Shown piece by piece: positions 21,149 through 61,866 of a stretch of DNA of 64,000 nucleotides. The DNA lies in the NCBI GenBank assembly GCA_030068145.1, contig JAPJBO010000080.1:124001-188000 (forward strand). Reading direction: 5' to 3'. This DNA comes from Diplonema papillatum (Eukaryota; Euglenozoa; Diplonemea; Diplonemida; Diplonemidae). Made by a program: the position numbers and the translations under genes. Position 1 is the first letter of the stretch. Every line of letters begins with the position of its first letter. Below the pieces are notes generated by a model. It was given only the letters and a program-made list of their open reading frames with translations. It did not search any database and had not been told where the DNA came from.

Positions 21149-24100
21149 ATGCAAAAGCATGAGCTTGTAGAACTCAGTCAGTATTCGCCGACGGGACAGA
21201 GCGTGTCGATGAGGGCAGGCGAGGACTTCGAAAGCATTGACGTGGCGCTCCCGCGGCAGAGCCTCGCGGGGGAGGATGGCGACCAACGCGACATCTGCGA
21301 CGAGCCGGAGGCGGCGCGCAGCGAGTACGACGACTACGGGCTGGTCCCCTTCATGGAGGACCCCGACGACGAGGACGACGACCTGAGCGATCCCGAAGGA
21401 AAGGACGGCAGCGAAGCCCCCGAAGAAGTGTCCCCGCCGGCAGCAGGTGCTGCCCAAGACTCGACCGGCGACTCTGCGGGACCGACACCGCCCCCAGGCC
21501 GCGACAGGGGAAGAGTGCAGAGCGCAAGCACCGACAGGAGTTCGATGGGGGAGAGGAAGCTCGCGAGCGCCCACGCGCACGAGTACAGCACGACGAAGGC
21601 CGCGTTCCACATTTTTAAGGGCAACGTCGGCGCCGCCATCTTCTCGCTTTCGGACGCATACGACAAGGCGGGGTTCGTGGCAGGGACGGGGATTATCCTC
21701 TTTTTCGCGATCGTCTGCGTGCACTGTATGCTTCTCCTCGTCGAGTGCAAGCAGACGCTGAACAACCCGCACGTGCAGACGTACGGCCAGGTTGCGAACG
21801 CCGCCTTCGGCAGACGGGGCAAGCACGTGGTAGACATCTTCATCGTGGTCACCCAGCTCGGGTTCTGCTGCACGTACTACCAGTTCGCCAGCGGGATGCT
21901 GCACAACGTCGTCGGCCCGGTGTCTGTCACTGCGTGGATCCTCATCATGGTGCCGGTGGCGACAGGGCTCACGTTCCTGCCGAACATGAAAAAGCTAGTC
22001 CCGGCCGCCATCTTCGCTACGATGGCGACTCTGTTCTCGCTGGTGGTGGTGTACGGATACGCGGTGCAGGAGGTCGTCCAAACCCCGGCGCTCGACCGGC
22101 AAGTCGTCGCGTTCACTTCGCCGTGGAAGTGGCCGATCGCCATGGGCAACGCGATCTCGGCGTTCGAAGGTCCTGCTTTTTTTAGTAATAACAATCTTGT
22201 GGGTTGCCCTTCAATGTATTGTGCAGGCTAAAAAGACGTAGGCAGCGTGTTTTGGTGGTTGATCAGAATTCCTTACCTGAATACACACAGGGTAAATACA
22301 AGTGGGAAAACGATCAACCGGCACGCACAAACAAAACGAAGCGCCTGTCTTTTTCAGTGTTCATCGTCTCAAATCCAAGAGTCACAAATGATCGACTCGA
22401 ACGCGTTTGTGGTGTTTTCGGAGAAATTTGAATTTATACCCCCGTTAATTTTGTGCCTTCCCTCCCCCGCGCTTTCACGTGTTTATCGTTGCCCCCCAAA
22501 CTCCCGATCTTCAACACGGGGGGGGGGTGCGATGCACGTTCCTGCCGAACACGAAGAAGCCGGTTCCGGCCGCCATCTTCGCGACGACGGCGACTCTGTT
22601 CTCGCTGGTGGTGGTGTGGGACGGATACGCGGTGCAGGAGGTCGTCCAAACCCCGGCGCTCGACCGGCAGGTCGTCGCGCTCACTTCGCCGTGGAAGTGA
22701 AGGATTATCTAGTCGGGGGCCTTTCCGGTGACGCCGTGCTGATTTAGACCACTTCGGGTCCTTTTATAGGCACTACGGATCCCTTCGGTTCTTTGTCTGG
22801 CAGCGTTTGTCGAGCATTTCCTTCCAAGCTGGCGCTTATGCAAAATAAAATACTCGAGGGGCTGCCTTGTGCTCATTTCGAAGGAGGCTGGCCGATCGCC
22901 ATGGGCAACGCGATCTCGGCGTTCGAAGGTCTTGCTTCTTTTCAGTGTTCATCGATACCAGGGAAAGCCTGCTGCACGGGAGCCAAGCTTCACGTGTTCG
23001 GCGGTACTGCAGAGCCACGGGCCTACGGGTCAAGTGGCTACCGATTTCCCAAACTAAAGCATCAAGGCGTGGCGCACCTTGGGGCTTGGCGCTTGCGCTG
23101 AACACAAGCTCGTCGAGACGGTCAGCCACAGGGCAGAGCGGACGGGGTTGTGGCACTGTGCTGTCTCCGACTCAAGCTTTGCAAGCTGTGGTTGACCGTC
23201 ACGTTCCTGGACCAGGAGCGGCCGTTTTCTTCTCTTTCTTCTCTTCAGTGTTCATCATCGACTCAAATCCAAGAGTCACAAATGATCGACTCGAACGCGT
23301 TTGTGGTGTTTTCGGAGAAATTTGAGTTTATACCCCCGTTAATTTTGTGCCTTCCCTCCCCCGCGCTTTCACGTGTTTATCGTTGCCCCCCAAACCCCCG
23401 ATCTTCAACACGGGGGGGGGTGCGATGCACGTTCCTGCCGAACACGAAGAAGCCGGTTCCGGCCGCCATCTTCGCGACGACGGCGACTCTGTTCTCGCTG
23501 GTGGTGGTGTGGGACGGATACGCGGTGCAGGAGGTCGTCCAAACCCCGGCGCTCGACCGGCAGGTCGTCGCGCTCACTTCGCCGTGGAAGTGAAGGATTA
23601 TCTAGTCGGGGGCCTTTCCGGTGACGCCGTGCTGATTTAGACCACTTCGGGCCCTTTTATAGGCACTACGGATCCCTTCGGTTCTTTGTCTGGCAGCGTT
23701 TGTCGAGCATTTCCTTCCAAGCTGGCGCTTATGCAAATAAAATACTCGAGGGGCTGCCTTGTGCTCATTTCGAAGGAGGCTGGCCGATCGCCATGGGCAA
23801 CGCGATCTCGGCGTTCGAAGGTCTTGCTTCTTTTAGTAATAACAATCTTGTGGGTTGCCCTTCAATGTATTGTGCAGGCTAAAAAGACGTAGGCAGCGTG
23901 TTTTGGTGGTTGATCAGAATTCCTTACCTGAATACACACAGGGTAAATACAAGTGGGAAACCGATCAACCGGCACGCACAAACAAAACGAAGCGCCTGTC
24001 TTTTTCAGTGTTCATCGACTCAAATCCAAGAGTCACAAATGATCGACTCGAACGCGTTTGTGGTGTTTTCGGAGAAATTTGAATTTATACCCCCGTTAAT

Positions 24101-27100
24101 TTTGTGCCTTCCCTCCCCCGCGCTTTCACGTGTTTATCGTTGCCCCCCAAACTCCCGATCTTCAACACGGGGGGGGGTGCGATGCACGTTCCTGCCGAAC
24201 ACGAAGAAGCCGGTTCCGGCCGCCATCTTCGCGACGACGGCGACTCTGTTCTCGCTGGTGGTGGTGTGGGACGGATACGCGGTGCAGGAGGTCGTCCAAA
24301 CCCCGGCGCTCGACCGGCAGGTCGTCGCGCTCACTTCGCCGTGGAAGTGAAGGATTATCTAGTCGGGGGCCTTTCCGGTGACGCCGTGCTGATTTAGACC
24401 ATTTCGGGTCCTTTTATAGGCACTACGGATCCCTTCGGTTCTTTGTCTGGCAGCGTTTGTCGAGCATTTCCTTCCAAGCTGGCGCTTATGCAAATAAAAT
24501 ACTCGAGGGGCTGCCTTGTGCTCATTTCGAAGGAGGCTGGCCGATCGCCATGGGCAACGCGATCTCGGCGTTCGAAGGTCTTGCTTCTTTTCAGTGTTCA
24601 TCGATACCAGGGAAAGCCTGCTACACGGGAGCCAAGCTTCACGTGTTCGGCGGTACTGCAGAGCCACGGGCCTACGGGTCAAGTGGCTACCGATTTCCCA
24701 AACTAAAGCATCAAGGCGTGGCGCACCTTGGGGCTCGGCGCTTGCGCTGAACACAAGCCCGTCGAGACGGTCAGCCACAGGGCAGAGCGGACGGGGTTGT
24801 GGCACTGTGCTGTCTCCGACTCAAGCTTTGCAAGCTGTGGTTGACCGTCACGTTCCTGGACCAGGAGCGGCCGTTTTCTTCTCTTTCTTCTCTTCAGTGT
24901 TCATCATCGACTCAAATCCAAGAGTCACAAATGATCGACTCGAACGCGTTTGTGGTGTTTTCGGAGAAATTTGAGTTTATACCCCCGTTAATTTTGTGCC
25001 TTCCCTCCCCCGCGCTTTCACGTGTTTATCGTTGCCCCCCAAACCCCCGATCTTCAACACGGGGGGGGGGCGATCCACGTTCCTGCTGAACATGTAGAAG
25101 CTGGTTCCGGCCGCCATCTTCGCGACGATGGCGACTCTGTTCTCGCTGGTGGTGGGAATAAGGGATTGGGAGAGGGAAGCACTCGTTCTTGAACCTGATT
25201 ACACCGAATATCTATTACTGACGACAAACGACCACGCCCCGCAGGAATCGGACTGGTCCTTCCGATCGAAAACGGCATCCGAGACAAGACGAAGTTCCCG
25301 CGCCTGATTACGCTGACTTTCGTCATCATTTCCGCCCTCTACATCTCGTTCGGGGTCGCAGGATACGTCGCGTACGCCACCCCGCTCGAGGCTTCCGGCG
25401 GCTCTGTGACTGACGTCATCCCGAGCAATTGGCTGACGGGGCTCGTTCGGCTTGGAATGGCGGTCGCCATCCTCTTGACGTTCCCGATCCAGTTCTTTCC
25501 AGCAATCCAGGTATAGTGTTCGTTTCACACGACCTTTTTCTTGAAGAAGCAAAAACCGAGCCAGAGCTTTTTGTGCGTGGGTTTTATTGCAAAGGGAAGA
25601 GCGGTGGTCCCGTGCACATCACAGGACCGACACAAGCGTGTCTCCCCAGCACCCTACTCGACAAAATCGTTATGTCTTCCTTCTTGGTTTAGCAATGCTT
25701 CTGGTGTTTCCTTCTTTGACTGGGTTACATGGTTTGAACATCTAGTGCGGAAATAAAATGGGTTCATCTTGACAGCAGGACGGTGGCCATGGAAGTCGGC
25801 ATCCGATAATGAGAGTAAGAAATCAACTGCCGAATGCACGGTTCCCGAAAATGTATGATGCTCAACCTATCCACCCATAGTTGGCCGCGTACTGGTATCA
25901 CAAAGCCAGGAGTGGTCCACGCCGCGAAGTCGTTGGCGTGAGCCTCGATGGAGCGTGGATGAGCGCAGATCTTGGTTGTAGTAGCGAATATTCAATGGAG
26001 AACATTGAAGGCCGAAGTGGAGAAGGTTTCCGTGTCAACAGCAATTGGACGTGGGTCAGTCGGTCCCAAGGCAAGGTGTAATTGCTCGCCTCAAAGCTGC
26101 CACTACGACGAGCTTGCTCGTTGTACATAAGCGCCAGCTTGGAAGGAAATGCTCGACAATAGCCGCCTGGCAAAGAACCGAAGGGATCCCGTGGGAACCG
26201 TGGGTAGCACCCTCTGCATCTCTCGAATCTCTGAGTTAGGACACGGTGGGAACCGCGGGTAGCACCCTCTGCATCTCTCGAATATCTGAGTTAGGACACG
26301 GTGGGAACCGTGGGTAGCACCCTCTGCATCTCTCGAATATCTGAGTTAGGACACGGTGGGAACCGTGGGTAGCACCCTCTGCATCTCTCGAATATCTGAG
26401 TTAGGACACGGTGGGAACCGTGGGTAGCACCCACTGCATCTCTCGAATATCTGAGTTAGGACACGGTGGGAACCGTGGGTAGCACCCTCTGCATCTCTCG
26501 AATATCTGAGTTAGGACACGGTGGGAACCGTGGGTAGCACCCTCTGCATCTCTCGAATATCTGAGTTAGGACACGGTGGGAACCGTGGGTAGCACCCTCT
26601 GCATCTCTCGAATATCTGAGTTAGGACACGGTGGGAACCGTGGGTAGCACCCTCTGCATCTCTCGAATATCTGAGTTAGGACACGGTGGGGACAGCTCAG
26701 GTCAAGCTCATTGCACAGAGAGGCATCCAGGCCCCCGCTTGGGCAAAGCCATTCAGCCGTAGCGAAATGGGGGGCCGACAACACACCACGCAGCTGGCAG
26801 CGCAAGACGAAAACAGAAGTCTTGAGCCGAATGCCGGCGCTCCCGCACTCTATCCGTCACCCGAAGAACTCTACCCACCTTTCGGTGAGGAGTCACGGAC
26901 CCGAAAACAGCCTGTCGGGCACTCCGCCCCACCCACCCGAGTCACAGGACTCAAATCGGAAACTCAAAGCCGACTGGTGAAAGTGACAAGTGGGCTATAC
27001 TTCGATTCAGGCGTTACCCACTCAAAGCCCTGAACTTAAACACACACACACACGCATCCCCACACAGGTCATTGAAGGTTGGCTGCTGCCGCGACCCTAC

Positions 27101-30100
27101 CGATACCAAGTGCGCTTGGCTACGAGCAGTTTGGCTACCGGGTTCACTCGGAAGATAGCACCGGTATGTCGACCGTTGAACTTGTGTTAGATTGTCTCTG
27201 TGAGGAAACCAACATTATACTGAAGATTCACCTGTTCAGTTTACATGTGTGCTCCACATGGTGACCCGTAACTCTCTGAGTGGGTGTATGGAAACCCACT
27301 CAGAGTGAATTGTCTCAGTGAGGAAACCAACATTGTACTGAAGATTCACATGTTCAGTTTACATGTGTGCTCCACATGGCGACTGGAAACTGAATTGTCT
27401 CAGTGAGGACACCAACATTATACCTGTTCAGTTTACATCCACATGGAGACCCCTAACTCTCTGCGTGGGTTTATGGAAACTGAATTGTCTCAGTGAGGAC
27501 ACCAACATTATACTGAAGATTCACATGTTCAGTTTACATGTGTGCTCCACATGGCGACTGGAAACTGAATTGTCTCAGTGAGGACACCAACATTATACTG
27601 AAGATTCACCTGTTCAGTTTACATGTGTGCTCCACATGGTGACCCGTAACTCTCTGAGTGGGTGTATGGAAACTGAATTGTCTCAACGTCTCAGGTGTGG
27701 CGCAATCTCCTCGCTCGTATCGTCATCTCGTTCTCGCTGGCGCTCATGGCTATCGCGGTATGCATGTTTCTAATCAACAACATCAAAAATACGTGAGAGG
27801 CAAGTTTCTGCGTGAACACCAAACGAAGGCTTTCGTTACCTGGTTTGCAGGCTTGCACCTGGTTTGCAGGAAATGCTTGAAGAGACTGCCAGTTGCGAAA
27901 TTCTCACAGGAGGTAACAACACGAAGCACGGGAGGTAAATCTGGGTTCAGTGGCGGACGTAAGCGTTAACAAAATTTCGGCATCCTTCCATGTGTCCCCG
28001 TGCGCAAAGGGTTAAACTAAACAAGTCCCCCCCAGGCATCTTGTTAAGAACCATCCATCCATCCATCAGCCGGCTGACCCCCCCCCTCTCATAGGCTATT
28101 TTCACTGTGGAGGGGGGAGACGCTACCTGTCACACTCTAAGGTGGTCACCACGGTGGGCGGTCAGAAAAAAAAAGTTTTTTTTTGCCCCAAACAGGTGTG
28201 GCCCTAAAGCGTGAATGTAAATAGAGATTTTGCCCAAACACATTTTTTTGCACTTTTTTTGCACCAGGCTACAGCCAGGCCTCACGTTCAGCATGCTAAA
28301 CGTACTGATTTCAGCACGTTAATTCTTTTAGTTTCTCTCTGTACACATGCCGAATCAGTACGTTATCAGCACATATCTTGTGTCCAAGATGCCACCCGAA
28401 GGCCACCCAAGCAGGCCCATGCAGGTCTTTCGAAGAACTGGTGGAGGAGGGAGCAAGCTGGCTTGGATGTCTGCACATACCCGTTTCTTCGGGCTTACGC
28501 GAGTGGGGGAATTGGCGTTTTTTTCGGCTCGCTACGCGAGCCGAAGAAGGGGATGATAAATACTCCATTACTTCGATGACCGCCATAGAGGGCCGCATAT
28601 GATATGATCATTCATCTGAGTGCAAGAGACAAGTTACCACAGTCCGGAACGCAAAACAGACATAGCATGCTGTGTGGCTCGGCTCGATTTCTTCGTTCGA
28701 TGAAGAACTATTCAGAAATGTTTTGTGACCAAGCTAGGAGCCTCTGAAAGTATTAGCTGTATGTTGGCAAGCGTTGACACAACACCATTCGAGTTCCTGT
28801 TGGAACTTGCGCCTGACAAACTTCCAATTGTGATGATGGTGATGATCTTAGCGGCAGTGCTGGTACAACCTCCTTAGCACAGACGACAGAAAGAAAGCGA
28901 AAGCGCGAAGAGTCCGACATTCCTCAGTCCGGCTACGATCCAAAACGGGTGCAAAAAGCAGGCGGAAAAAGTGCAAAAAAACGTAAATAGGGTCTTGGAT
29001 TTTGCCCAAAAAGAGCGTAAATAGGGCCACACGTGGCCCCCAAATACCCCAAATACCACACCTTGGAAAATTTTTGTGGGCCCACTTTTGGCAGGGAATT
29101 TTGACCATTTCACCTTGGAGAATTTGACCACCCAGCCTCCAAGGCAACTGCACTGTAGAGGGGGGTTTTTTTTAATCTGACGAAGGAAGGATGCGATAAA
29201 CATTGGAACCAGAAAGTTGTGAAAGCACCGGAACAGGACCGAAAGTCCCCGTCCAAAGGACCCACTGAAGAGCTCTAACTTTGGATTGGTATGCGTTCAA
29301 GAGCGAAACCAGAGACAAAGAACGAGGTGCTCACAACACCGCGGTGAAAAAAAGAAAAAAAGAAAAAAAGAATACAGAGGAATAGTCCCTCAAGGTTCCA
29401 GACCCTACCTGCGGAGTCTTACACTCCCTGCGACCCTTTTCCCTTTCCCCTATTTTATTTTACACTTTCTTCGACGAAGACTTGATGCTAGCATCAAACA
29501 TGCATGCGAGGCAGTACTCTGCCTAAACATTAAACTAAGTTTTCCCCCCGACAGAGTCTGCCGGCCCTCTGAGGGCACAGGTCTCACTCTGCTCTCCAAG
29601 ACGGAGAAGACATCGATTCTCAGAAAATATGGGAATACCCAAAAACCTACGAAGATAGGAAAAACCCCCAACCGACTGTGACAAAGCAGCACCGGCAACG
29701 GGAACCAGACCCAAATAGCACCGAGCTGACAGAGACCCCACCTCCGACCTCACAAAAAATGTGAAGTTTGGAAAGGACCGCGTTGTCTACGCGGGAAAAG
29801 GTTGACTGTCAGTCATTCTCTTCCCTCCTTCAAACCCAACAAGACCAGTCTTCCGGATGGTAAACGGAAAGCGAACCATACAGCCTTTCCCCTCCCCACC
29901 TATCGGATGCAAATGTGACGTCCCAACGCTTCTCTGCAGCAACGGCGACTGAAGTCCGGAAGCAAAACCCCGCATCCCTTTGTTGGCCGCGTTGCCGGAT
30001 CTATAAACAGCGCTTCCGAGTGCCGTAACGAACCGGCCCCCAGCAAAGTAAAAGTTTTATTTAAACCCGCCCCACACCCCGCGTCAGAGAGGAAGGATGT

Positions 30101-33100
30101 CTACCTTCCAGCAACCCACTTCTCCCCACCCGTTTGGAACAGAGACGATACTAGCTGACCGCAAGCCGATTTCTCGACAGTGGCTCTTGTTGGGGCAGCC
30201 ATTAACAACTGACGGGAGGAAGCAAACAGTCAAACTTTACCGTCTCCCCCGAACAAACCCCACTTTCACCCCATCACAACCCCCAACAGGGTTCACAGAA
30301 GAGCACAGGTGTCATCCACACCCGTGTGAGGCAAAGCCAGGGAAACCATAACCCCGGGCGACAACCAAAAACCCGAAACACAACCGAACAAAAGGATGTT
30401 GCAACCACACGATGGCCCCTTGCCGTGTGACCGTAAAAGAAAACCGCAGGACCGCCTTTGGACCCGTCAGCCTGACACGCTGGCAGACTCAAAGTAAAAA
30501 CCCCCTTTACCGTTCCGAAACCGACACAGAAAGTGCCTAAGAAGCACATACTACGACGGCTTAGTGGATCGTCCGCAACCACCGAGTCCGATAACATGAA
30601 AGTGAACTACTTTGATGACGAACTCGAGGGAACAACCGGTAAGACAATCGTTGGAATTCCGATTCGGACAGATGACGAATGTCTTATTTTCCGACAAAGC
30701 CATTCCCAGGAAGGACCTGAACTTGTTGGTCGATTCCCAATGAAACGAACGGAAGGAAAGGAAGAGAAAAGCTGCGACGAAGGTCTTTCCAGACCCCAAA
30801 CAGCCCCAAAACAAAGGACCCGGGTCGCCGCACAGCACCCGGGTCACACCAACCGACAAAAAGAGCGCGAACAAAAGAGGCCAAAAAAAGAAACCCTCAG
30901 AGCACAAAAAAGCCGCACAAAATCGGATCAACGACCACAGGACTCTGAGGCAAAAAAACCAAAAAAACAAAAAACCAAAAACGAACAACGCGCCCATAAA
31001 AAAGAGAAAAAAGATCGGCAAAAAACAAAACGGCCCAAGTCAGACACCCGCTTCCTCGCCGCCTTCGTCAACACCCGCAACAATCCATACAACGACGACG
31101 GACATGCAGAACGAAGACGAAATGCGATCCAGCTTTTTTGGAAGCGCAACGGTAAGAAGGTAACAGACGGGCGAACGAAGTGCGGGATCGACACAAAGAA
31201 CGTCGCTGACGACGGAACAGGTGTCATCTACGTGCTCGTGAACGAAGGGGGCACAGCCCTCTACGTTGGGCAGACGTCGAAGACGGCCGAGACGCGTAAC
31301 AACAAGCACTGGGAGAACCGTAACTCCAAGCGCAACCGCGTTGCACAACAACTTCGCAAACGAGGCCGTAAACTGTACGCATGCCCGATCCAGAACGTCC
31401 CGGAGCGACTCTACACGCAACCAGCAGACTTCCCGCGGGTAGCGCTACCGATTGAGGACTTCTGGATAAAGTGGCTCAACCCTCCCCTGAACATGACGAA
31501 TCGACGCCAAGGGGAAAAGGTTGGCCACAAGCCGCATAAAAAGAAGAAACGACAGCGCCCACCACAGCGTCTCCGAAAACGGCGCAGCGATGGCAACACC
31601 TGGCACCGCATGCGGGACGGCAAGCTCGAAATCGACACCTCGCCAGGCTTTTGTTCTGGGTTGCGGAAACAACTGGACCACCTCATCAGGCTTCCCCCTG
31701 ACCAGTTGGGGATGTATGACTTGTCCACTTGGCACCCGAACCGCGCCCTACGCCTCCGCACCTGGCTGAGAACCTTCATACAGGGCGAGAGCGTAACAGA
31801 CAACGTGAGAACTCTCGAACGACTTCTCAGTCAACGCATCAGGAACCGGACCGAGAAGAAAGCAGCACCTCCCCGCCGATACTTCAAGCTGACCCACCAA
31901 CACCCGGCACAAGACCGCACGGCAATCGCTGGTGTCCTTTCTCGAACAAGGATTCGCGAGGCATGCCCCAACCCGGCGGTTCTCGATAATCTCATGGTGA
32001 GCAACCGCCTGAAACCACCGTTGGCGACACTCCTGTGCAACTTCACCGAGGTCAGCTACGAGACGCACCACCCGACAAACACCGAGGCGACCTGTCCGTG
32101 CAAACAACACATACAGACTAGTCACCTCGACGGACACGCTCTGGGGCTAGCAACGGACCTGAAGACAGACGAGGCCCTTTTGTCACTTTTCCGCAAGGGA
32201 CGAAAGTACCGAGTAGCCAGCAGCCCTATGTCACTCTACGATTCGATGCGGTTCGACGTCGAAGAGTTCGTTACCAATAACTTTAGGAAGTCAAGCGAGA
32301 GCGAGAAATCGCATTTTGCAGCAACACTGACAGAAGAGTTCGACACCGTTCTTGGAACGCTCAACGCACACACGGACGAGCCGCACCTCCGAGATGCCCT
32401 GCGGACGCTGAAGAAACTGCAAGAACACCTTGTCATTCTTCCTGTAGACAAAACTGCACACGATTTCGGTTTCATCTGCAAGGAAAAGTACAAGGAACTC
32501 ATTCGAAAAGAGCTACACCAAAGCTCAGCCTACAAACATGTTGACACCTCGATGGCAGACATTCTCCAGCAACACCAAACCTTCAACAAGTCCCACAACT
32601 TCACCCACTCCAACATCCTGCCATATCTATATGGTACTCCGAAGCTACACAAACCCGAGCCTCGGATGCGGTACATTGCCGGCGTTTCAGAGAAGGGAAA
32701 CACGGAGAAAACGGACGAACAGCAGGCAAAAGCTGAAAAAACTCCCAACAAGAAGCAACCGAAGACGCGCGCCTCAACAACACCAGCCCACCAAGAGACA
32801 TCGGGCATCCTAAAACTGGTTCTAGCCACACTGCAAGGCAAGGACGAAGCGTCTCGGGCAAAGACGGGGATACGTCGCTTCTTCGTCGTCGAATCAATTG
32901 ACGGCGTAGCCGTTCACATTAAGACAAACTACGCACGGCTACGCCAGAAGGTCCCACGTACATTCGATTTCAAAGAAATGTACACAAAGATTCCGCAACA
33001 GCGAATTGTAGAGTACGTCATGCTCGCTGTGTCGGAAGCATTCGAGTACGCGAAGGCGGAACGTGGTTGTGACCTGAAGGCACGACGGTCGAAGCAGCAG

Positions 33101-35667
33101 TTCGAGTTCAGCAATGCTGACGCGATGGACGCGACAGCATACAACGTCGAGGAGATCCGGGAATTGGTCGAATTCATTGTCGGCAACACGTTTGTGACGA
33201 ACGGTGGTCAATGTTACCAGCAGGTAACTGGAATTCCAATGGGCGGTAACGCAAGCCCAGATCTGGCGAATCTGTATTGCTACTGGTGTGAAAAGCTTTA
33301 CATCGATAGCCTGATCACGGAAGGACGCCATGAAGAAGCCAGAGCCCACGCCGACAGCGTCAGGTTCATCGATGACTTCCTGACTTGGAGTGCACGACCA
33401 CCACCGGAAGCAATCTACGGCATGGAATATTCGGAAACGTCGAAAGACGTTGACGACGTAGTCTTCTTGGGAATGCGCGTTAGAGTTGAGAGGGGTAACA
33501 AGGCCAACTTCATCCGACTCTCCGTTCTGGACAAGGGTGAAGAGTTTCCATGGTACCCCATCAAATACACGCATGCCGAGTCGACGGTCCCGCGAAACAC
33601 CGGAACCTCGATATTCAAAGGTGCCCTGATACGAGCAGCCCGCATCTGCAACAACATGCCTGATCTCAAAGTCGAGATCATGAAGGTGTATTACCGGTTG
33701 CGAGATCGTGGGTTCTCCGGACGTGAACTGCGACACACGTTCGATACTTTTGTCGTGCAGACATACGGCAAGTACGAACTGGACGCACGGGTGCTGACAC
33801 AGTTTTACCACTATGTTGGGAAAGCCTATGACGAAGGACGCCCAACGAACGAAGAGAAGCCGTTCATCAACACCCGACAGCCGAACCGACCCACCTCCCC
33901 ACCACATCAGACGCCCAACCCGCCCGAGCCCGAAAACACCACAACGACGGTCTCGCCCTCAAACGAACCAACAGGTTCTCCCAAACGCAACCGCAACGGC
34001 ATCACCAACGTTCGCAACACGTGCTTCTTTGCCGCCAGCGTCCAATTTCTGGCACGCAAACGAAACTTCCGGAACCAACTCGAAACTATTGAGCGTCCGG
34101 ATGAAGAACAGTTGAAAATCCGTCGACTTTTCACGGATTTTGATGCTGGCCGTGACATCCATGGTTCGATGGCAGAAATTCGAAGTCTCGTTTTCGGCAC
34201 AACTGAGAACGACTCCGAACACCGTGATGCCCACGAACTGCTGACATGGATGAGAAGCTGCGTGAGGGGGGATAACAATGACCCAACGATGGTTACATAC
34301 TCACGGCGAACCACCTGTAAAGTGTGTCAGGAGACCTCGACAGCGGTGCCGGTGTTAGAACCATTTCTCCTTGTAGAGCTCAAAAACAGGGAGAACTCCT
34401 ACACCGAGACGGTTGAAGCTCTTGTAAACAAAGTAAAGAACAAGAGAGCAGCCGATGTCGACCTCGACTGTACAACATGCCGAAAAAAGACGGTAGGCTC
34501 CTCGAAAGAGGTCTATGCCTTTCCAAATATGATGGACGTGGCACTGAAACGGGCCCAACGGTCGAAGAGGACAGGCGAGGAGATAAAAGTGAAAGCCCGC
34601 ACACCAATCCAATCAACCATTGGGATTGGCGAAGACACGTACATGGTGACGGGTTTCATAATCCACACTGGAAAAGTACATGCTGGGCACTATTACACCA
34701 TTATGAAAGAAGCAGACGAATGGGTGTGTTATGACGACCAGCAAGTATCAGTGCTCTCATGGGAAGCATGTGCCGGAAAGTTCGTTTCGAACGGTTACAT
34801 CGTCTCCCTTGAGAAGATATAAACACTTTCACTCAGTGGAAGCAGTGCCCCGTGGCGGTTGGTTACGAGCCACAACCCAAACCAGAACCCCCTTTTTTTA
34901 ATCTGACGAAGGAAGGATGCGATAAACATTGGAACCAGAAAGTTGTGAAAGCACCGGAACAGGACCGAAAGTCCCCGTCCAAAGGACCCACTGAAGAGCT
35001 CTAACTTTGGATTGGTATGCGTTCAAGAGCGAAACCAGAGACAAAGAACGAGGTGCTCACAACACCGCGGTGAAAAAAAGAAAAAAAGAAAAAAAGAATA
35101 CAGAGGAATAGTCCCTCAAGGTTCCAGACCCTACCTGCGGAGTCTTACACTCCCTGCGACCCTTTTCCCTTTCCCCTATTTTATTTTACACTTTCTTCGA
35201 CGAAGACTTGATGCTAGCATCAAACATGCATGCGAGGCAGTACTCTGCCTAAACATTAAACTAAGTTTTCCCCCCACGTATCCATGCTGCGTATCCGTGC
35301 TGCTTTTAGTAGTAAGAAGCTCGTCGTTGAATCACAGCCAAACCCGCAGGTAGGCAACCAAATGAGCTTGTTCCTCGCGTTGGTCGGCGGAATGGGCGGG
35401 AGCGTGCTGGCGGTGATCTTCCCGCCCCTTCTGCACACGCGCCTGATCCTCTTCGACCCCCTGCGGGCCAGCAAGGAGGTCGGGTACGGCGGCTGGTCCC
35501 GCGTCGTCAAAAACTGCCTCTTGATCTGCTTCGGCATCATCTGCTTCTGCCTGAGCACGTACTTCTCGATGGTCGACCTCGTCGAAAAGCTGAGCGAGGA
35601 GTCGCTCCCCGCGGGCACCGGCGCACTGGACTTGCCCTTCACCCCGCCTCCCGTAGCTGCACCCTGA
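21149..35667 (+). CDS. SLC36/AAAP-type amino acid transporter, four exons
   Basis: Exons are 21149-22169, 25245-25510, 27695-27757 and 35350-35667. All junctions are GT...AG and in phase, giving about 555 residues. The first 120 residues are acidic, Asp/Glu-rich and cytosolic-looking. Then come AFHIFKGNVGAAIFSLSDAY (the family's first transmembrane signature), several hydrophobic segments, FEG|IGLVLPIEN (joined across intron 1, a family hallmark), FPIQFFPAIQ, and VGNQMSLFLALVGGMGG with FPPLLH. Such carriers move neutral amino acids, often with protons, across the plasma or vacuolar membrane; substrate is not readable here. About 15 residues usually found between exons 2 and 3 are missing, so a small exon may be unseen. 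Intron 3 hosts a Penelope-like retroelement. Confidence 0.85.
22184..25160. repeat. Exon-relic array in transporter intron 1
   Basis: Copies of the exon 1 stretch coding TFLPNMKKLVPAAIFATMAT onward start at 22535, 23428, 24185 and 25076 (spacings 893, 757, 891). A larger 1651-bp duplication is superimposed (AGTAATAACAATC at 22184 and 23835). In three copies the exon is split after SPWK by about 190 bp of inverted repeat R1, which carries the TATA promoter facing upstream, before WPIAMGNAISAFEG resumes. The relic frames stop at the R1 border. TFLPNT replaces TFLPNM in the relics. Confidence 0.85.
25245..25510 (+). CDS. Amino acid transporter, exon 2
   Basis: The acceptor is GCCCCGCAG and the donor CAG|GTATAG. 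It completes the Gly codon begun in exon 1 and encodes GIGLVLPIENGIRDKTKF through FPIQFFPAIQ. Confidence 0.85.
26190..26690. repeat. 55-bp tandem repeat, about nine copies
   Basis: The unit begins GTGGGAACCGTGGGTAGCAC and ends GAGTTAGGACACG. Copies are nearly identical. It lies in transporter intron 2. Confidence 0.9.
27185..27690. repeat. Tandem repeat, about 90-115 bp units
   Basis: Units share TCTCAGTGAGGACACCAACA, TGAAGATTCACATGTTCAG and GTGTGCTCCACATGG. The array ends directly before exon 3 of the transporter, so its last unit supplies the sequence upstream of the acceptor. Confidence 0.85.
27695..27757 (+). CDS. Amino acid transporter, exon 3
   Basis: This is a 63-base exon between ACGTCTCAG and GTATGC, coding VWRNLLARIVISFSLALMAI plus A, one membrane segment. 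The hydrophobicity, phase and following VGNQMS exon support it. Confidence 0.65.
27868..27972 (+). repeat. Repeat R1, partial copy
   Basis: GGAAATGCTTGAAGAGACTG through GGCGGACGTAAGCGTT matches the first half of the long R1 copy at 19517. Confidence 0.7.
27973..29166. other. Transporter intron 3, unannotated part
   Basis: The stretch holds C and G tracts and short ORFs on both strands (for example 28211-28579) without recognisable domains. A hairpin GGCTCGCTACGCGAGCC lies at about 28526. Confidence 0.4.
29167..29549 (+). repeat. 5' pseudo-LTR of the Penelope-like element
   Basis: It begins TTTTTTTAATCTGACGAAGG and ends AAGTTTTCCCCCC, with an inner run of AAAAAAAG units. GGACCGAAAGTCC and GTCCAAAGGAC form adjacent small hairpins. 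Confidence 0.85.
30596..34822 (+). CDS. GIY-YIG endonuclease / reverse transcriptase / ubiquitin-specific protease fusion
   Basis: The frame is open from 30476; the first ATG is 30596, giving 1408 residues. Residues 1-200 are Lys/Arg-rich. A GIY-YIG domain spans about 209-300 (GVIYVLVN, ALYVGQTS, TRNNKHW, PIEDFWIKWLNPPLN). CPCKQHIQTSHLDGH follows near 500. The reverse transcriptase covers about 600-1010: VILPVDKTAHDFGF, YLYGTPKLHKP, FDFKEMYTKIP (motif A Asp 791), TGIPMGGNASP, and RFIDDFL (catalytic Asp 926-927). A Pro/Thr linker leads to a USP domain, about 1134-1408: Cys box GITNVRNTCFFAA (Cys 1143), two zinc-type pairs CKVC and CTTC, and His box HTGKVHAGHYYTIMK (His 1365) with WVCYDDQQVS (Asp 1380-1381). 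The first two enzymes copy the element by target-primed reverse transcription. The third should remove ubiquitin from proteins; its role here is inference. Confidence 0.88.
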   Translation: MKVNYFDDELEGTTGKTIVGIPIRTDDECLIFRQSHSQEGPELVGRFPMKRTEGKEEKSCDEGLSRPQTAPKQRTRVAAQHPGHTNRQKEREQKRPKKETLRAQKSRTKSDQRPQDSEAKKPKKQKTKNEQRAHKKEKKDRQKTKRPKSDTRFLAAFVNTRNNPYNDDGHAERRRNAIQLFWKRNGKKVTDGRTKCGIDTKNVADDGTGVIYVLVNEGGTALYVGQTSKTAETRNNKHWENRNSKRNRVAQQLRKRGRKLYACPIQNVPERLYTQPADFPRVALPIEDFWIKWLNPPLNMTNRRQGEKVGHKPHKKKKRQRPPQRLRKRRSDGNTWHRMRDGKLEIDTSPGFCSGLRKQLDHLIRLPPDQLGMYDLSTWHPNRALRLRTWLRTFIQGESVTDNVRTLERLLSQRIRNRTEKKAAPPRRYFKLTHQHPAQDRTAIAGVLSRTRIREACPNPAVLDNLMVSNRLKPPLATLLCNFTEVSYETHHPTNTEATCPCKQHIQTSHLDGHALGLATDLKTDEALLSLFRKGRKYRVASSPMSLYDSMRFDVEEFVTNNFRKSSESEKSHFAATLTEEFDTVLGTLNAHTDEPHLRDALRTLKKLQEHLVILPVDKTAHDFGFICKEKYKELIRKELHQSSAYKHVDTSMADILQQHQTFNKSHNFTHSNILPYLYGTPKLHKPEPRMRYIAGVSEKGNTEKTDEQQAKAEKTPNKKQPKTRASTTPAHQETSGILKLVLATLQGKDEASRAKTGIRRFFVVESIDGVAVHIKTNYARLRQKVPRTFDFKEMYTKIPQQRIVEYVMLAVSEAFEYAKAERGCDLKARRSKQQFEFSNADAMDATAYNVEEIRELVEFIVGNTFVTNGGQCYQQVTGIPMGGNASPDLANLYCYWCEKLYIDSLITEGRHEEARAHADSVRFIDDFLTWSARPPPEAIYGMEYSETSKDVDDVVFLGMRVRVERGNKANFIRLSVLDKGEEFPWYPIKYTHAESTVPRNTGTSIFKGALIRAARICNNMPDLKVEIMKVYYRLRDRGFSGRELRHTFDTFVVQTYGKYELDARVLTQFYHYVGKAYDEGRPTNEEKPFINTRQPNRPTSPPHQTPNPPEPENTTTTVSPSNEPTGSPKRNRNGITNVRNTCFFAASVQFLARKRNFRNQLETIERPDEEQLKIRRLFTDFDAGRDIHGSMAEIRSLVFGTTENDSEHRDAHELLTWMRSCVRGDNNDPTMVTYSRRTTCKVCQETSTAVPVLEPFLLVELKNRENSYTETVEALVNKVKNKRAADVDLDCTTCRKKTVGSSKEVYAFPNMMDVALKRAQRSKRTGEEIKVKARTPIQSTIGIGEDTYMVTGFIIHTGKVHAGHYYTIMKEADEWVCYDDQQVSVLSWEACAGKFVSNGYIVSLEKI
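34893..35275 (+). repeat. 3' pseudo-LTR of the Penelope-like element
   Basis: It has the same length and apparently the same sequence as 29167-29549. Its end lies 75 bases before exon 4 of the transporter. Confidence 0.85.
35350..35667 (+). CDS. Amino acid transporter, exon 4
   Basis: The acceptor is AACCCGCAG. It encodes the last membrane segments (VGNQMSLFLALVGG, CLLICFGIICFCLS) and stops at 35665-35667. The last 50 codons and the 3' flank are duplicated at 36320-36457. Confidence 0.85.
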   Translation, partial: VGNQMSLFLALVGGMGGSVLAVIFPPLLHTRLILFDPLRASKEVGYGGWSRVVKNCLLICFGIICFCLSTYFSMVDLVEKLSEESLPAGTGALDLPFTPPPVAAP

Positions 35668-46044: not shown

Positions 46045-47560
46045 CTGCATGAAGATTTTCCGACGGAAACCCACTGTTGCATCAATGTAATGGCCCAAAT
46101 CTGACCGAAAACCGCTGTTACATCAATGTAATGGGCCAAATCTGGCGGGAAACCACTGTTACATCACTGTAATGGGCCGAATTTCACAGAAACCCACTGT
46201 TACATCAATGTAATGGCCCAAATCTGACCGAAAACCACTGTTACATCGATGTAATGGGCAGAATTTGACGGAAAACCACTGTTACATCAATGTAATGGGC
46301 CAAATTTGACGGAAAACCACTGTTACATCGATGTAATGGGCAGAATTCTGACGGAAAACCACTGTTACATCAATGTAATGGCCCAAATTTGACCGAAAAC
46401 CACTGTTACATCGATGTAATGGGCAGAATCTGACCGAAAACCACTGTTACATCAATGTAATGGCCAAATTTGACGGAAAACCACTGTTACATCGATGTAA
46501 TGGGCAGAATCTGACGGAAAACCACTGTTACATCAATGTAATGGCCCAAATTTGACCGAAAACCACTGTTACATCGATGTAATGGGCAGAATTTGACGGA
46601 AGACCACTGTTACATTGATGTAATGGGCAGAATCTGACGGAAAACCACTGTTACATCGATGTAATGGGCAGAATCTGACGGAAAACCACTGTTACATCAA
46701 TGTAATGGGCAAATTTGACGGAAAACCACTGTTACATCAATGTAATGGGCCAAATTTGACCGAAAACCACTGTTACATGAATGTAATGGGCAGAATCTGA
46801 CCGAAAACCACTGTTACATCAATGTAATGGGCAGAATCTGACGGAAAACCACTGTTACATCAATGTAATGGGCAGAATTTGACCGAAAACCACTGTTACA
46901 TCAATGTCATGGCCCAAATTTGACGGAAAACCACTGTTACATCAATGTAATGGGCAGAATCTGACCGAAAACCACTGTTACATCAATGTAATGGGCAGAA
47001 TCTGACCGAAAACCACTGTTACATCAATGTAATGGGCAGAATTTGACGGAAGACCACTGTTACATCGATGTAATGGGCAGAATCTGACGGAAAACCACTG
47101 TTACATCGATGTAATGGGCAGAATCTGACGGAAAACCACTGTTACATCAATGTAATGGGCAGAATCTTGACGGAAAACCACTGTTACATCAATGTAATGG
47201 CCAAATTTGACCGAAAACCACTGTTACATGAATGTAATGGGCAGAATCTGACCGAAAACCACTGTTACATCAATGTAATGGGCAGAATCTGACCGAAAAC
47301 CACTGTTACATCGATGTAATGGGCAGAATTTGACGGAAAACCACTGTTACATCAATGTAATGGGCAGAATCTGACGGAAAACCGCTGTTACATCAATGTA
47401 ATGGGCCAAATTTGACCGAAAACCACTGTTACATGAATGTAATGGGCAGAATCTGACCGAAAACCACTGTTACATCAATGTAATGGGCAGAATTTGACGG
47501 AAAACCACTATTACACCAATGTAACGGGCCGAATTTCACAGAAAACCACTGTTACATCAA
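46045..47560 (+). repeat. 41-bp satellite, left arm (about 36 units)
   Basis: The unit is CACTGTTACATCAATGTAAT followed by GGGCAGAATCTGACGGAAAAC, with variants CGATG/CAATG and GGCAGAATC/GGCCAAATT. It includes TTACATCGATGTAA, a perfect 14-bp palindrome in many units. Confidence 0.95.
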
Positions 47561-47774: not shown

Positions 47775-49745
47775 CACTACATTGATGCAAGTTGCAACAG
47801 TGGTTTTCGGTCAAATTTGGGCCATTACATTGATGTAACAGTGGGTTTCCGTCAAATTTGGGCCATTACATTGATGTAACAGCGGTTTTCCGTCAGATTC
47901 TGCCCATTACATTGATGTAACAGTGGTTTTCGGTCAAATTTGCCCATTACACTGATGTAACAGTGGTTTTCCGTCAAATTCTGCCCATTACATTGATGTA
48001 ACAGTGGTTTTCCGTCAAATTTGGGCCATTACATTGATGTAACAGTGGTTTTCCGTCAAATTTCCCTCTCAAAAGGCTAAGGCCCAGCTCCGTTTGTTGT
48101 CCTAGTGAGCTCTATACTTCAAAAAAAAAAAAAAAAGTGGTTTTCCGTCAAATTTGGGCCATTACATTGATGTAACAGTGGTTTTCCGTCAAATTCTGCC
48201 CATTACATCAATGTAACAGTGGTTTTCCGTCAGATTTGGGCCATTACATCGATGTAACAGTGGTTTTCGGTCAAATTCGGCCCATTACATTGATGTAACA
48301 GTGGTTTTCCGTCAGATTCTGCCCATTACATCAATGTAACAGTGGTTTTCCGTCAGATTTGGGCCATTACATTGATGTAACAGTGGTTTTCGGTCAAATT
48401 CTGCCCATTACATCGATGTAACAGTGGTTTTCCGTCAGATTCTGCCCATTACATCGATGTAACAGTGGTTTTCCGTCAAATTTGGCCATTACATTGATGT
48501 AACAGTGGTTTTCGGTCAAATTTGGCCCATTACATTGATGTAACAGTGGTTTTCCGTCAGATTCTGCCCATTACATCGATGTAACAGTGGTTTTCGGTCA
48601 AATTTGGGCCATTACATTGATGTAACAGTGGTTTTCCGTCAGATTCTGCCCATTACATCGATGTAACAGTGGTTTTCTGTGAAATTCGGCCCATTACATT
48701 GATGTAACAGTGGTTTTCCGTCAAATTCTGCCCATTACATTGATGTAACAGTGGTTTTCGGTCAAATTCTGCCCATTACATCGATGTAACAGCGGTTTTC
48801 CGTCAAATTCTGGCCCATTACATCGACATTTGATGTAACAGTGGTTTTCGGTCAAATTTGGCCCATTACATCGATGTAACAGTGGTTTTCCGTCAAATTT
48901 GGGCCATTACATTGATGTAACAGTGGTTTTCCGTCAGATTCTGCCCATTACATCGATGTAACAGTGGTTTTCCGTCAAATTCTGGCCATTACATTGATGT
49001 AACAGTGGTTTTCCGTCAAATTCTGGCCATTACATTGATGTAACAGTGGTTTTCCGTCAAATTCTGCCCATTACATCGATGTAACAGTGGTTTTCCGTCA
49101 AATTTGGGCCATTACATTGATGTAACAGTGGTTTTCCGTCAAATTCTGGCCATTACATTGATGTAACAGTGGTTTTCGGTCAAACTTGGGCCATTTCATT
49201 GATGTAACAGTGGTTTTCCGTCAAATTCTGCCCATTACATCGATGTAACAGTGGTTTTCCGTCAAATTTGGGCCATTACATTGATGTAACAGTCGTTTCC
49301 CGTCAAATTCTGGCCATTACATTGATGTACCAGTGGTTTTCGGTCAAATTTGGGCCATTACATTGATGTAACAGTGGTTTTCCGTCAAATTTGGGCCATT
49401 ACATTGATGTAACCGTGGTTTTCCGTCAAATTCTGGCCATTGCATCGATGTAACAGTGGTTTTCCGTCAAATTTGGGCCATTACATTGATGTAACAGTGG
49501 TTTTCCGTCAAATTCTGGCCATTACATCGATGTAACAGTGGTTTTCCGTCAAATTTGGGCCATTACATTGATGTAACAGTGGTTTTCCGTCAGATTCTGC
49601 CCATTACATCGATGTAACAGTGGTTTTCCGTCAGATTCTGGCCATTACATCGATGTAACAGTGGTTTTCGGTCAAATTTGGGCCATTACATTGATGTAAC
49701 AGTGGTTTTCCGTCAAATTCTGCCCGTTACATTGATGTAATGGCC
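47775..49745 (-). repeat. 41-bp satellite, right arm in complement (about 47 units)
   Basis: The unit reads GTTTTCCGTCAAATTTGGGC then CATTACATTGATGTAACAGTG. A 75-bp foreign piece ending in A17 interrupts it at 48062-48136. Confidence 0.95.
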
Positions 49746-54466: not shown

Positions 54467-57400
54467 ATGAGGCTCTCTGGGCACCTGGTGCTGGTGGGCC
54501 TCGCGGTTGCGGTCACGAGGGGGCAGGCCGCGGGGCACTGCTGCTACCTCTGCGACGTGGCACCAGGGCCGGGCGCGTGCTACGGCTGCTTCCCGGCACA
54601 GTCGTACTGCAGCCAGTACCAGGAGAACTGCCAGAACGACTGTTCTAGCACGTGGCTCGCAGCGATGCCGCCCATCGTCGCGCCGCCGCAGCAGACGCAG
54701 CCCTCCTCCAGTCCGCCGCCCGTGATATGGACGGCGAAGCAGAACTCCGGCGAAATCGTCCCCGGAAAACCGACCGTCAGCGGGGGCCACGTGTACACAA
54801 CCCCAGGAGGACTCTTACCCATCCTCCCGCGGCGCAACGTCTCTTGGGTGCAGAAGGTCGCGCTGTCCGACGGCACCCGCGTGTGGAAGCAACCCATCCC
54901 GCCCCGGTCGATGGACGGCAACGAGACGCTGTTCCACACGTCGTTCGCGCCGGTGATTGCAGACGACACCATCTACGTGCAGATCATCAGCTACGGGACC
55001 CTCCCACGCATCGTCGCGCTGACCACCGACAACGGCAGCCGCCTGTGGGACTCCGAAAGCTCTCACAACGCGTTTCCCCTGCCGCTTGCCGCTGGCGACC
55101 AGCGGGTGTACAGCGTGAACGTGACGGGATATGTCGAGTCGCGCGCTGCCTGCGACGGCGCTGGGAACTGGACGTTCGACGCGGGATTTGTCTCCGCGAT
55201 GAATCCTCCGGTGCTCGTGAACGGCGTCGTGTACAAATCCGGGACCAACAGCGGGCAGCACGCCTACGTGTTCGCCATCGACGCGGTCACCGGCACCGAA
55301 ATCTGGTCGGCGCCGTTCACCGCGCTGCCGTGGCAGACCGGGGTAGCCGTGATTAACGACCTGACGCTCGTGACCACCACCGTGTTCCGGAGTGCCGGGA
55401 CGATGTATTTGCCGATCCCGTCGCTGCCGTACGGCCCGCCGGAGGGGCCGATTGTCGCGTTCGAAGGCGGCAACCGAAAGTGGAGCTTCGAGCTCGCGGC
55501 TTCGACGTCGTTTCCCGCGTCGCACGTCACGAAGACCGGTGAGGAGCTGTTCATTGTGACCGCATGCGAGACTCCGCCACTGCCGGGGGCGCCGCCGCTG
55601 TGGTGGATCGGGTGCAGCCTGTGGGCCTTCGGGCTCAACGACGTGCCGGAGGACCTGTTCCGCAGCGTGCGGTGGCGCTTCGTCGCGAACAGCAGCTACG
55701 CCTTGTCGCCGCCGCAGGTGTCGGGCGGTGTGGTGTTCGTCGGCGGGGCCGCGTTCTCAAATGGGACGTGGCCGTACTGCGTGTGGCCCCCGTGGGAGCC
55801 GTACCCGAACTGCACGTTCAGCACCGACACGCCGCAGCTGCCGAAGTTCACGGACCCATTCATCATCGCGCTCGACGCGAACGACGGCAGCTTTTTGTGG
55901 ACGATCAACGTCACAGACACCGCTGGCGACTTCTCCTGGGACGACATCCTCGACACTCTCGAGGAGTACAGCAACATCCTCTCCGGCGAGACCTCCGTCG
56001 CGGACTGGACGGACGCGGAGCTCGCGGGATTCGTCGCGAAGGCGAAAAAATGTGCGTTCGCGAAGGCGTTCATCGTGACGTCGGTCAGCGGGGGCGCGCC
56101 GGCGGGGGTGCTGTTTTCGGAGCACCAGTCAGACTACTCGATGCTGCCGTGGAACCAGTTCACGACCGACGCGGAGGGGCGGCGGTTGATCTACACCGAC
56201 GACGCGGGGCTCGTTGGCCTTGACATCTCCGGGCGGGTGCCGGCCGCGGGGTCCAGCTCGTGGGTGGTGCCGATCGTGATCGCGACCGGCGGCCTGCTGC
56301 TGGTCATTGCCTGCTGCCGCCTCCTCAGCCGCGGGTGCCTCTCCCGCAGCTCCCCTGAGTCTGGCGTAGAATCCTCGCAGTCCCGAGTAGGCAAATTCCT
56401 CCTCCCGCAGAACGGCGGGCCATCCATCACGTGCTCCGCCGAAGAGCAGCACGGGTACGTCGTCTTGAAAGCGCTGGGCAGGGGAGGATTCGGCTCCGTG
56501 TTCCTCGTCCGCCGGCAGTTCGACAGCCACCTGTACAGCCTCAAGCGCATCGACTGCCGCACCGCGAAGGAGCTGAAGATCGCGAAGCGCGAAGTCAGCA
56601 TCCTGTCCAACCTCCCGGAGCACTCGGGGCTGATGTGCATCATCGAGTCCTTCACGGAAAGCAGCAGCGTGTTCATGGTCCTGCCGTACTACGAACAGGT
56701 GCGCGTTTTTTTAGCACTACAACCTCGGGGGTTGCCCTTCAATGTATTACAGATCGATGGCAGCGTACTCTATGAGTGTCCAAAATTCGGGTCCAAGTCT
56801 TGGTTCCAAAAAACTCGGGTCCGAAATTCGGGTCCACATTTTGGGTCCAAAATTCGGGTCGTTTGAGTCCAAGTCTGGTCAGAAGTCTGGGTCAAAAATT
56901 CGGGTTTTGGCCCCAGTGGGTCCCAAGTTACTGGGGGGTCGAATACAAGAGGTACCTCTTGTATTCGGCGTGCCGATCCTGCAATTTTCCCGAAAAAGAA
57001 ATAGAAAAGCGTGTGCCTGGGGCAGTGGACCTGTTCCAGGCAATCGTTCGCCGGGCCGTGATGCCGAACAGGACCCGGGTTTCATGCAGGCTTTGCCAGC
57101 ACGCGGCGACTGCTGCACGACCTTCTCGAAGATGACCCGGTCCACAACGCAGCCTCGAGCGCTCCGGAGGCCTACCCGCAAGGACTGCCCAGCGTAAAAG
57201 ACGTGATGGAGGATTTCGCTCTACGAAGGCCGCCGGCGCTGAAGTTCGTTGCTGAGCGTGTTAAATCGACATACGACGATCCGCTAACACCCACGCGGGG
57301 ACGATGGCTTTCCGGCGACACACGTGGACGCCTCTCGCACACGTAAAAACAGGTCTACAACACACACACACACACACAAGCGTGGCCGTAGGAAGGCACC

Positions 57401-60756: not shown

Positions 60757-61866
60757 ACACTCAGGTTCCGCGCCGATGATGGTCCGCCTTACTGTCCGTG
60801 GCTTAAAGGACCGACATACGAGGTACACAACGATACTCTGGCGCTGCGTGTGGAGGATATCCCCTTTGCCGAAATTCTTCCCGGTAACCACATACGGACG
60901 GAGGATGTGCCGGGGGATTCGCGAGCCGAAGCCCGTTTGTCGCTGGAAACGGATAAGCTACGGATCCGAAGACCCTACCCCACAAGGGAGCAGCTGCCGT
61001 CTTCCCATCATTGGACAAGTAAAGCGACAACAAGAGTAGTGGCATTTCATTGTTGCGGCCTCCCACCTATTCTACACCTCTCGTGTCACTGCACAAAGTC
61101 TGACTAGAGTCAAACTCAACAGGGTCTTCTTTCCCCGCTGACAGTTTCAAGTCCGTTCCCTTGACTGCTGTTTCGCCAGGGGGGAACGTGTTTTCCCAAT
61201 TACCTGAAAGCCCCCCCCCCCCGACTGTAGCAGTTGAGGAAGGTGCAAACTTGGAGACTGCTACAGTAGTCCTGCACGAGACTTGGGCACGTGGCAGGTG
61301 AGCTTTGAGAACCCTGGAGCCCGGCATGTGTGCCGTTTACGGGATACATGTCGGCTTCCTACTCATGGGGGACCAAGGTAGGCACTCACACCTCGAAGCC
61401 GGACCAACCACTACCACCAAAAGCGAAGCAACAACACCAACACGGAGACGCAAACCGAAGGCAGCTAAGCAGACCTCCCAGGGCAGGGGGGAACCTGCGG
61501 CGGTGAAGTAACGAAGCTCATCCGAGTGTCCGATGAAACCCCTTGTCAATACCACCCAACGAGTGCGAAGCGCGTGCGAAATGTCGGACGCTAGCGTCTG
61601 TCAAGAGCATGCGTGACTCAGCCGTGTTTTAAAGGTGAGATGAGAGGCATCGGCTCACTCTGTTAAAGGACCATACCACGAACGCAACAAGAGGTAGCAG
61701 TTGAGGAAGGTGCAAACATGGAGACTGCTACAGTTGTCCTGCACGAGACTTGGGCACGTGCCTCGCGTAGGGCAGGTGGGCCTGTGACCCGCTTTGAGAA
61801 CCCTGGAGCCCGGCACGTGTGCCGTTTACGGGATACATGTCGGCTTCCTACTCATGGGGGACCAAG
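60757..61866 (+). CDS. Orphan spliced coding candidate, two exons
   Basis: Exon A, 60757-61018, follows an acceptor GTCCTGTCCGCAG and encodes TLRFRADDGPPYCPWLKGP, then TYEVHNDTLALRVEDIPFAE and a charged stretch, ending at donor CAA|GTAAAG. The remaining base joins in phase to an exon at 61698-61866 (VEEGANMETATVVLHETWAR then FENPGARHVCRLRDTCRLP), which ends at AAG|GTAGGC. A shorter copy of that second exon at 61231 starts in the same phase but has a deletion and stops early. I do not recognise the protein, and the first exon is missing. The LRVEDIP segment reappears in the repeats at 62650-63000. Confidence 0.35.

Follow-up and report, generated by a model that had tools for sequence, protein, structure and literature searches.

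Why should the single protein of a retroelement end in what looks like an enzyme that removes ubiquitin? This question is raised by a 64-kb stretch of Diplonema papillatum DNA (64,000 nucleotides, here called the window), in one open frame of which a first-pass annotation, made from the letters of the sequence, had placed a GIY-YIG endonuclease, a reverse transcriptase (RT) with an FIDD motif and a USP-type cysteine protease. Penelope-like elements (PLEs), as described in the available parts of PMC11167929 and PMC3846280, occur as tandem units that give pseudo-LTRs (pLTRs), and encode GIY-YIG and RT in one ORF.

Anatomy of the window element

Pfam and the RT motifs bear out the three-part frame: the ORF is intact and reads GIY-YIG nuclease, CxC motif, RT and USP (Table 1). 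The direct repeats of 383 bp on either side of it correspond to the pLTR layout of PLEs, and other copies of the subfamily show the same layout. The distance from pLTR to pLTR is 5726 bp, the 3' end of the element is TTTTCCCCCC, and this copy abuts a G-run. The flanking repeats were absent from the first-pass annotation, and the tandem copies and sister families described below lie beyond the window. An Rfam search of positions 29100-30600 returned nothing at the gathering score, and no hammerhead ribozyme even at E 5.

Table 1. Features of the window element. Domain limits carry P0001 residue numbers, whereas the USP catalytic residues C1143, H1365 and D1380 are counted from the ATG at 30596.
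Feature	Position in window	Strand	Basis
5' pseudo-LTR, 383 bp direct repeat	29167..29549	+	100% identity to 34893-35275
5' leader, pLTR to first ATG	29550..30595	+	from sequence
Single ORF: 1408 aa with ATG start, 1429 aa if begun at GTG 30533	30596..34822	+	stop at 34822
GIY-YIG endonuclease domain, P0001 residues 230-317	31220..31483	+	Pfam PF01541 E 5.4e-6
CPC (CxC) motif, endonuclease-RT interval	32093..32101	+	CPC or CAC in 8/8 representative proteins
RT, aligned stretch, limits approximate	32210..33780	+	alignments A1/A2, motifs A/B/C
RT catalytic Asp codons	32966-32968, 33371-33376	+	motif positions
Pro/basic linker, RT to USP	33773..33997	+	representative proteins; dN/dS
USP (UCH, peptidase C19) domain, P0001 residues 1156-1412	33998..34768	+	PF00443 E 3.6e-18; six-sequence profile vs PDB
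Catalytic Cys codon (C1143 from ATG)	34022..34024	+	invariant column
Two CxxC pairs, C1241/C1244 and C1292/C1295, zinc ribbon	34316..34480	+	3/4 Cys columns invariant, alignment A3
Catalytic His codon (H1365)	34688..34690	+	window codons and alignment A3
Catalytic Asp codon (D1380)	34733..34735	+	Asp in A-C but Asn in D
3' pseudo-LTR	34893..35275	+	383 bp, terminates in AAGTTTTCCCCCC

The nuclease of the window protein exceeds its Pfam cut-off (27.1 bits against 22.6), and two full-length relatives fall marginally below it (L017, 21.4 bits; L030, 22.4 bits). RVT_1 matched the window protein at only E 0.094, under the Pfam cut-off, so that the RT was assigned by its motifs A (FDFKEM), B (GIPMGGNAS) and C (FIDD); their key residues are invariant in a seven-sequence alignment of families A-F. 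An RT profile searched against PDB recovered no RT at E <= 1, its sole match being a non-RT at E 0.43, and an NCBIfam search of three proteins gave sub-cut-off matches only, in two of the three. The nuclease lies N-terminal to the RT catalytic Asp residues (812-948), an order kept in all eight representative proteins. We note an arenavirus glycoprotein match that overlaps the CxC region (P0001 479-582, window 31967-32278; Pfam E 0.023, below cut-off; PDB chain E 0.0049), and reject it as probably chance or a common metal-binding pattern. Judged by anatomy and motifs, the element is assigned to the Penelope-like class, with its nuclease N-terminal.

Elsewhere in the window, two isolated fragments of eukaryotic LSU rRNA on opposite strands score over the gathering threshold, at 25756-25865 (+, 81 bits) and 60789-61206 (-, 71.9 bits), with no further rRNA matches in the window. 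A 41-bp satellite forms two large arrays (46062-47560 and 47796-49740) whose consensus units look mutually reverse-complementary, i.e., a big inverted pair. An amino-acid transporter lies at 21149-22228 (+; Aa_trans E 1.5e-35), and at 54467-58734 (+) a PQQ/BamB-like beta-propeller runs into the first part of a protein kinase, while the next frame encodes the remainder of a kinase; the layout is like that of an IRE1-type gene.

The USP domain and the selection acting on it

The profile homology on which the first-pass reading turned is clear: PF00443 matches at E 3.6e-18 and 66.5 bits, against a cut-off of 23.9. When six sequences (A1, A2, A3, B, C and D) were combined into a profile, it retrieved 106 different PDB sequences (E <= 0.001), and the match is therefore above chance; the best of these is USP36 (E 4.5e-23, 260 of 274 profile positions). 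Each motif that had been pointed out, namely the Cys box, both CxxC pairs, the His box and the DD, is present, with Cys 1143 at the codon listed in Table 1. The window USP is 20-21% identical to those of families B, C and D, and the columns invariant across A-D (alignment A3) include N13, C15, D83, E86, C116, C164, C167, H229, G236, H237 and W248, many of which belong to the catalytic, zinc-binding or signature residues. Asn in place of the catalytic Asp, as in family D, is accepted in many USPs. A single-sequence AlphaFold model of the domain is poor (mean pLDDT 37.8), so the assignment of the fold rests on sequence.

Three pairs of copies have unsaturated dS (A3 L020/L022, B-type L026/L035 and C-type L030/L036). 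In that order, dN/dS is 0.237, 0.227 and 0.237 for the USP, 0.115, 0.149 and 0.098 for the RT, and 0.278, 0.431 and 0.387, with wide intervals, for the linker. Codon bootstrapping of the USP (200 draws each) gave intervals between 0.11 and 0.44, which overlap those of the linker, and in no draw did the value reach 1. The USP value exceeds the RT value in all three pairs, and the constraint on it therefore looks looser; selective constraint on the USP is thus real, and weaker than that on the RT. In other pairs, whose dS is saturated or near-saturated, the USP value again exceeds that of the RT and stays far under 1; the E-F pair was left out as saturated. The Cys, His and Asp/Asn motifs are retained in 28 of 29 PLE-USP loci, many of them near-identical, the exception (L025) being a broken copy. 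A chance match or a relic is ruled out by the dN/dS values together with the intact motifs, and the earlier view that the domain is no relic stands.

Copies of the subfamily and recurrence of the fusion

In the 271-Mb genome, a search with the protein yielded 50 match rows from the best 33 of 4244 candidates. All 33 main rows extend to query residue 1428 and so include the USP, and 32 of them lack an inner stop; the remaining 17 rows cover N-terminal portions of these copies. As the best candidates alone were scored, copies without a USP fall outside this 33/33 count. The subfamilies among these best 33 of 4244 are A1 (12 copies, 100%) and A2/A3 (71-82%).

Eight A1 loci were compared, one of them the window copy (L002), and the other seven are 99.7-100% identical to it over 4.8-6.1 kb. 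The 3' flanks differ among seven compared copies. Contig C510 carries three tandem units at a spacing of 5726 bp, the pLTR spacing of the window; L005 is 5'-truncated and begins shortly before the coding region, after a C run; and L007 starts within the 5' repeat and ends 16 bp before the usual 3' end. A C-run is found at the 5' junction in five of the eight loci (L001, L003, L005, L006 and L008), a count not set against the genome-wide background of C-runs; L004 lies inside a tandem array, and L007 has neither a C-run nor a G-run. Element-spaced repeats were seen in 3/3 A2 loci and 5/6 A3 loci, in L026 only among the B type, and as one weak repeat (84%, L033) in the C type.

Within this same genome, then, the linkage of RT and USP recurs at independent insertions and in diverged families. 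A search for relatives in viral and other genome contigs gave 100 + 41 pattern stretches, none of which was confirmed by tblastn. Searches for rbcL and for chlorophyll-a/b-binding proteins were negative, and the organism is therefore probably not photosynthetic, although its plastid contigs may be missing. Separately, we observed a 609-aa open frame common to eight GIY-YIG matches with an A2-like score (C150, C667, C1582, C1646, C2153, C2233, C2318 and C2436), which may be a truncated or otherwise damaged derivative that has been amplified.

Sister families and the exchange of USP for OTU

A PF00443 search of the genome, in which the best 149 of 935 candidates were scored, returned a lower-scoring block of 112 rows (hand count), many in frames of 1562 or 1585 aa. 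Eleven of 11 loci sampled from this block (L026-L036) are B/C-type elements; the RT motif is in the same frame in ten, and L034 has the USP part only. L035 is a B-like element and does not belong to family D. Full-length B and C elements share ~28-30% identity with A across 1300-1400 aa and have the same GIY-RT-USP order, and their linker contains basic, NLS-like runs.

A GIY-YIG search gave 127 matches from the best 150 of 225 candidates, and three long frames of other lengths were examined. Family D (L037) has GIY-YIG, CAC, RT and USP (E 5.3e-14) in a genome frame of 2210 aa whose N-terminus lies outside the region read. In families E (L038) and F (L039), GIY-YIG, CPC and RT are followed by an OTU domain that replaces the USP, with PF02338 over its cut-off in each (E 2e-5 in E, 1e-8 in F) and with the OTU motifs G[DN]GNC and Q[WV]H. 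An RT query from family E gave 74 matches, from the best 72 of 720 candidates, and an OTU search scored the best 150 of 656; comparing the two sets, we found at least 13 loci with an OTU match directly downstream of an RT on the same strand. All six sampled PLE families (A-F) therefore carry a deubiquitinase-type domain, although families with low GIY-YIG scores may escape such sampling, as C did. The representatives of B-F carry a C2HC-type finger motif at the C-terminus, and A is without one. On a backbone tree with long branches, D grouped with E/F at 89/90. These sequences are best read as a clade of permuted PLEs, with the nuclease at the N-terminus and a slot for a deubiquitinase at the C-terminus.

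One further locus (L040, C823:1000-5500) is a LINE with an N-terminal OTU, an APE endonuclease and an RT in one 1972-aa frame. That frame length was seen in many OTU matches, and OTU-LINEs may be abundant in the genome, one locus having been read.

Origin of the USP domains

The nearest non-element relative found for the USPs of B and C is a 702-aa frame on C9 (L041/L042; C9:544801-546906), which joins an N-terminal metallo-beta-lactamase (E 1e-8) to a USP (E 7.5e-33) without an RT, and whose N-terminal part occurs once in the genome. The USP of this frame shares 57% identity with the one in B, 51% with C and 23-26% with A and D; in the tree it joins B/C at 100/99. The identity to B makes this metallo-beta-lactamase-USP gene a possible donor or recipient: it may have donated the B/C domain or have taken it from an element. 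PLEs, according to the available part of PMC3846280, are able to capture host DNA between their pLTRs.

In a tree with eight host USPs, the eight PLE USPs fell together at 84/93 (not starred). When L041 was added and D excluded, a single clade of the seven A+B+C rows against nine others was rejected (p-AU 0.0156), as was a grouping of A with L041 (p-AU 0.0105); with D kept in, the L041 tree likewise lacked a single PLE USP clade. These USP trees have long branches and draw on 9 of the 37 PF00443 rows that do not belong to the block of elements, and L041 is labelled 'host' in them solely for its absence of an RT. The USP of family A is possibly a separate capture. We consider it on balance probable that the deubiquitinase slot has been filled repeatedly by enzymes that are unrelated or were captured separately (in E/F an OTU, in B/C the L041-shared USP and in A possibly one from a third source), and that LINEs took OTU independently. 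If true, this repeated filling of the slot would be the trace of an arms race in which the retroelements of this organism face a ubiquitin-based restriction of their proteins.

A proposed function and its rivals

We lean, at somewhat better than even odds, towards a young and apparently mobile PLE whose C-terminal domain would be an active deubiquitinase that acts in cis on its own protein or RNP. The GIY-YIG would nick DNA, the RT would copy the element RNA at the nick in a target-primed manner, and the C-terminal enzyme would strip ubiquitin from the element's own protein or RNP, so sparing the RNP from proteasomal or other ubiquitin-based restriction by the host. As the deubiquitinase is fused to the RT, it would accompany every RNP. 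The polyubiquitylation and degradation of L1 ORF1p via TEX19.1/UBR2, reported in the available part of PMC5570191, is a precedent for ubiquitin restricting a retroelement. The exchange of USP and OTU folds suggests that the activity, and not a particular binding surface, was kept, and the presence of one or the other in sister families hints that these elements must cope with the cell's ubiquitin tagging system.

Alternatively, the enzyme might act in trans at the insertion site, where a chromatin-bound RT complex would deubiquitinate histones or repair factors (e.g., H2A/H2B or PCNA) and thereby ease cleavage, second-strand synthesis or repair. This is a serious rival, possible although clearly less probable than action in cis. 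The domain belongs to a protein expected to bind target DNA, B/C have the NLS-like basic linker runs and the B-F representatives the C-terminal finger motifs, and, as weak evidence, the nucleolar enzyme USP36 is the profile's top match in PDB. On the other hand, family A has no such finger, the sequence names no substrate, and the chain-type selectivity that is frequent among OTU enzymes fits degradation chains at least equally well. We think it improbable that the protease instead processes the element's own polyprotein, cutting nuclease and RT from the C-terminal part in the manner of the deubiquitinating viral cysteine proteases. It does sit within the same long polyprotein, behind a Pro-rich and fast-evolving linker; however, a ubiquitin-tail-like site ([hydrophobic]RGG or L[RK]GG) is absent from all eight representative proteins, on which ground we reject self-cleavage at such a site, and another PLE has a polyprotein that, once purified, can cut and extend DNA in vitro, according to the available part of PMC11167929.

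A ubiquitin-binding tether that has no need of catalysis would accord with the weaker constraint on the USP than on the RT, but is equally doubtful given that the catalytic motifs are kept in nearly all loci (28/29) and that the replacement in E/F is likewise a protease, with its Cys and His motifs. Finally, an artefact, whether an assembly join or an RT fused by chance to a host USP gene, has no supporting point that we found and is so remote as to be negligible: many copies, flanks that differ where compared, and diverged families with the same order rule it out. None of the outcomes named beforehand as refuting the fusion was seen, for the profile matches, the insertions are many and there is no assembly join.

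Ubiquitin-like-protease domains occur in a few non-LTR retrotransposons, and we know of no agreed function for them. Here one genome holds PLE-USP, PLE-OTU and LINE-OTU combinations, and the common factor therefore looks like deubiquitination and not a particular fold. This predicts that a host restriction system ubiquitylates the proteins of retroelements and that the element-borne enzyme undoes the modification; USP and OTU on the same backbone would then be a natural experiment on which ubiquitin chains matter.

Comparison with known elements

A CxC motif between endonuclease and RT is part of the definition of N-terminal-endonuclease PLEs, which show 5' truncation and an insertion bias for simple repeats and, to our knowledge, have no hammerhead ribozyme. 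The N-terminal-endonuclease (permuted) PLEs Chlamys and Naiad were reportedly described by Craig et al. in 2021 (MBE). Like these, the elements studied here have GIY-YIG before RT, a CxC motif, a single ORF, pLTRs, tandem copies and simple-repeat insertion, with no hammerhead found; they differ in a C-terminal USP or OTU and, in B-F, a C2HC-type finger, neither of which is known to us from Chlamys or Naiad. With canonical PLEs, for instance Poseidon of Anolis, they share GIY-YIG and RT in one ORF, pLTRs and tandem repeats, whereas in canonical PLEs the RT precedes GIY-YIG, a hammerhead ribozyme is present and no protease domain is named, as far as the available part of PMC11167929 goes.

The available part of a paper on Ectocarpus transposable elements reports Chlamys PLEs and does not contain the word ubiquitin (PMC12477816), and those of PMC12910113 and PMC3482391 describe no retroelement-USP fusion. 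No PLE with a USP or OTU appeared among the matches listed from open-licence full texts, a scope outside which Craig et al. 2021 falls; among those matches, the statement of the first-pass annotation that no USP was known in this class agrees with the literature. A PLE with a C-terminal USP or OTU is thus apparently without an earlier report, which is not proof of novelty.

Among non-LTR elements, Dualen carries a cysteine protease. NeSL and Utopia-1_TSP have an N-terminal Ulp1-like protease domain, according to the available part of PMC4640811. The window element resembles all three in combining an RT and a Ub/Ubl-type cysteine protease in one protein, and the OTU-APE-RT LINE described above is of this general kind; the window element differs from these non-LTR elements in RT class and in protease family, theirs not being USP, and in NeSL and Utopia the protease is N-terminal. 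With cellular USPs such as USP36, USP12 and USP46, all matched by the profile in PDB, the window domain shares the Cys box, the His box, the zinc Cys residues and the length of the catalytic core; unlike them, it is fused to an RT and has spread as a mobile element.
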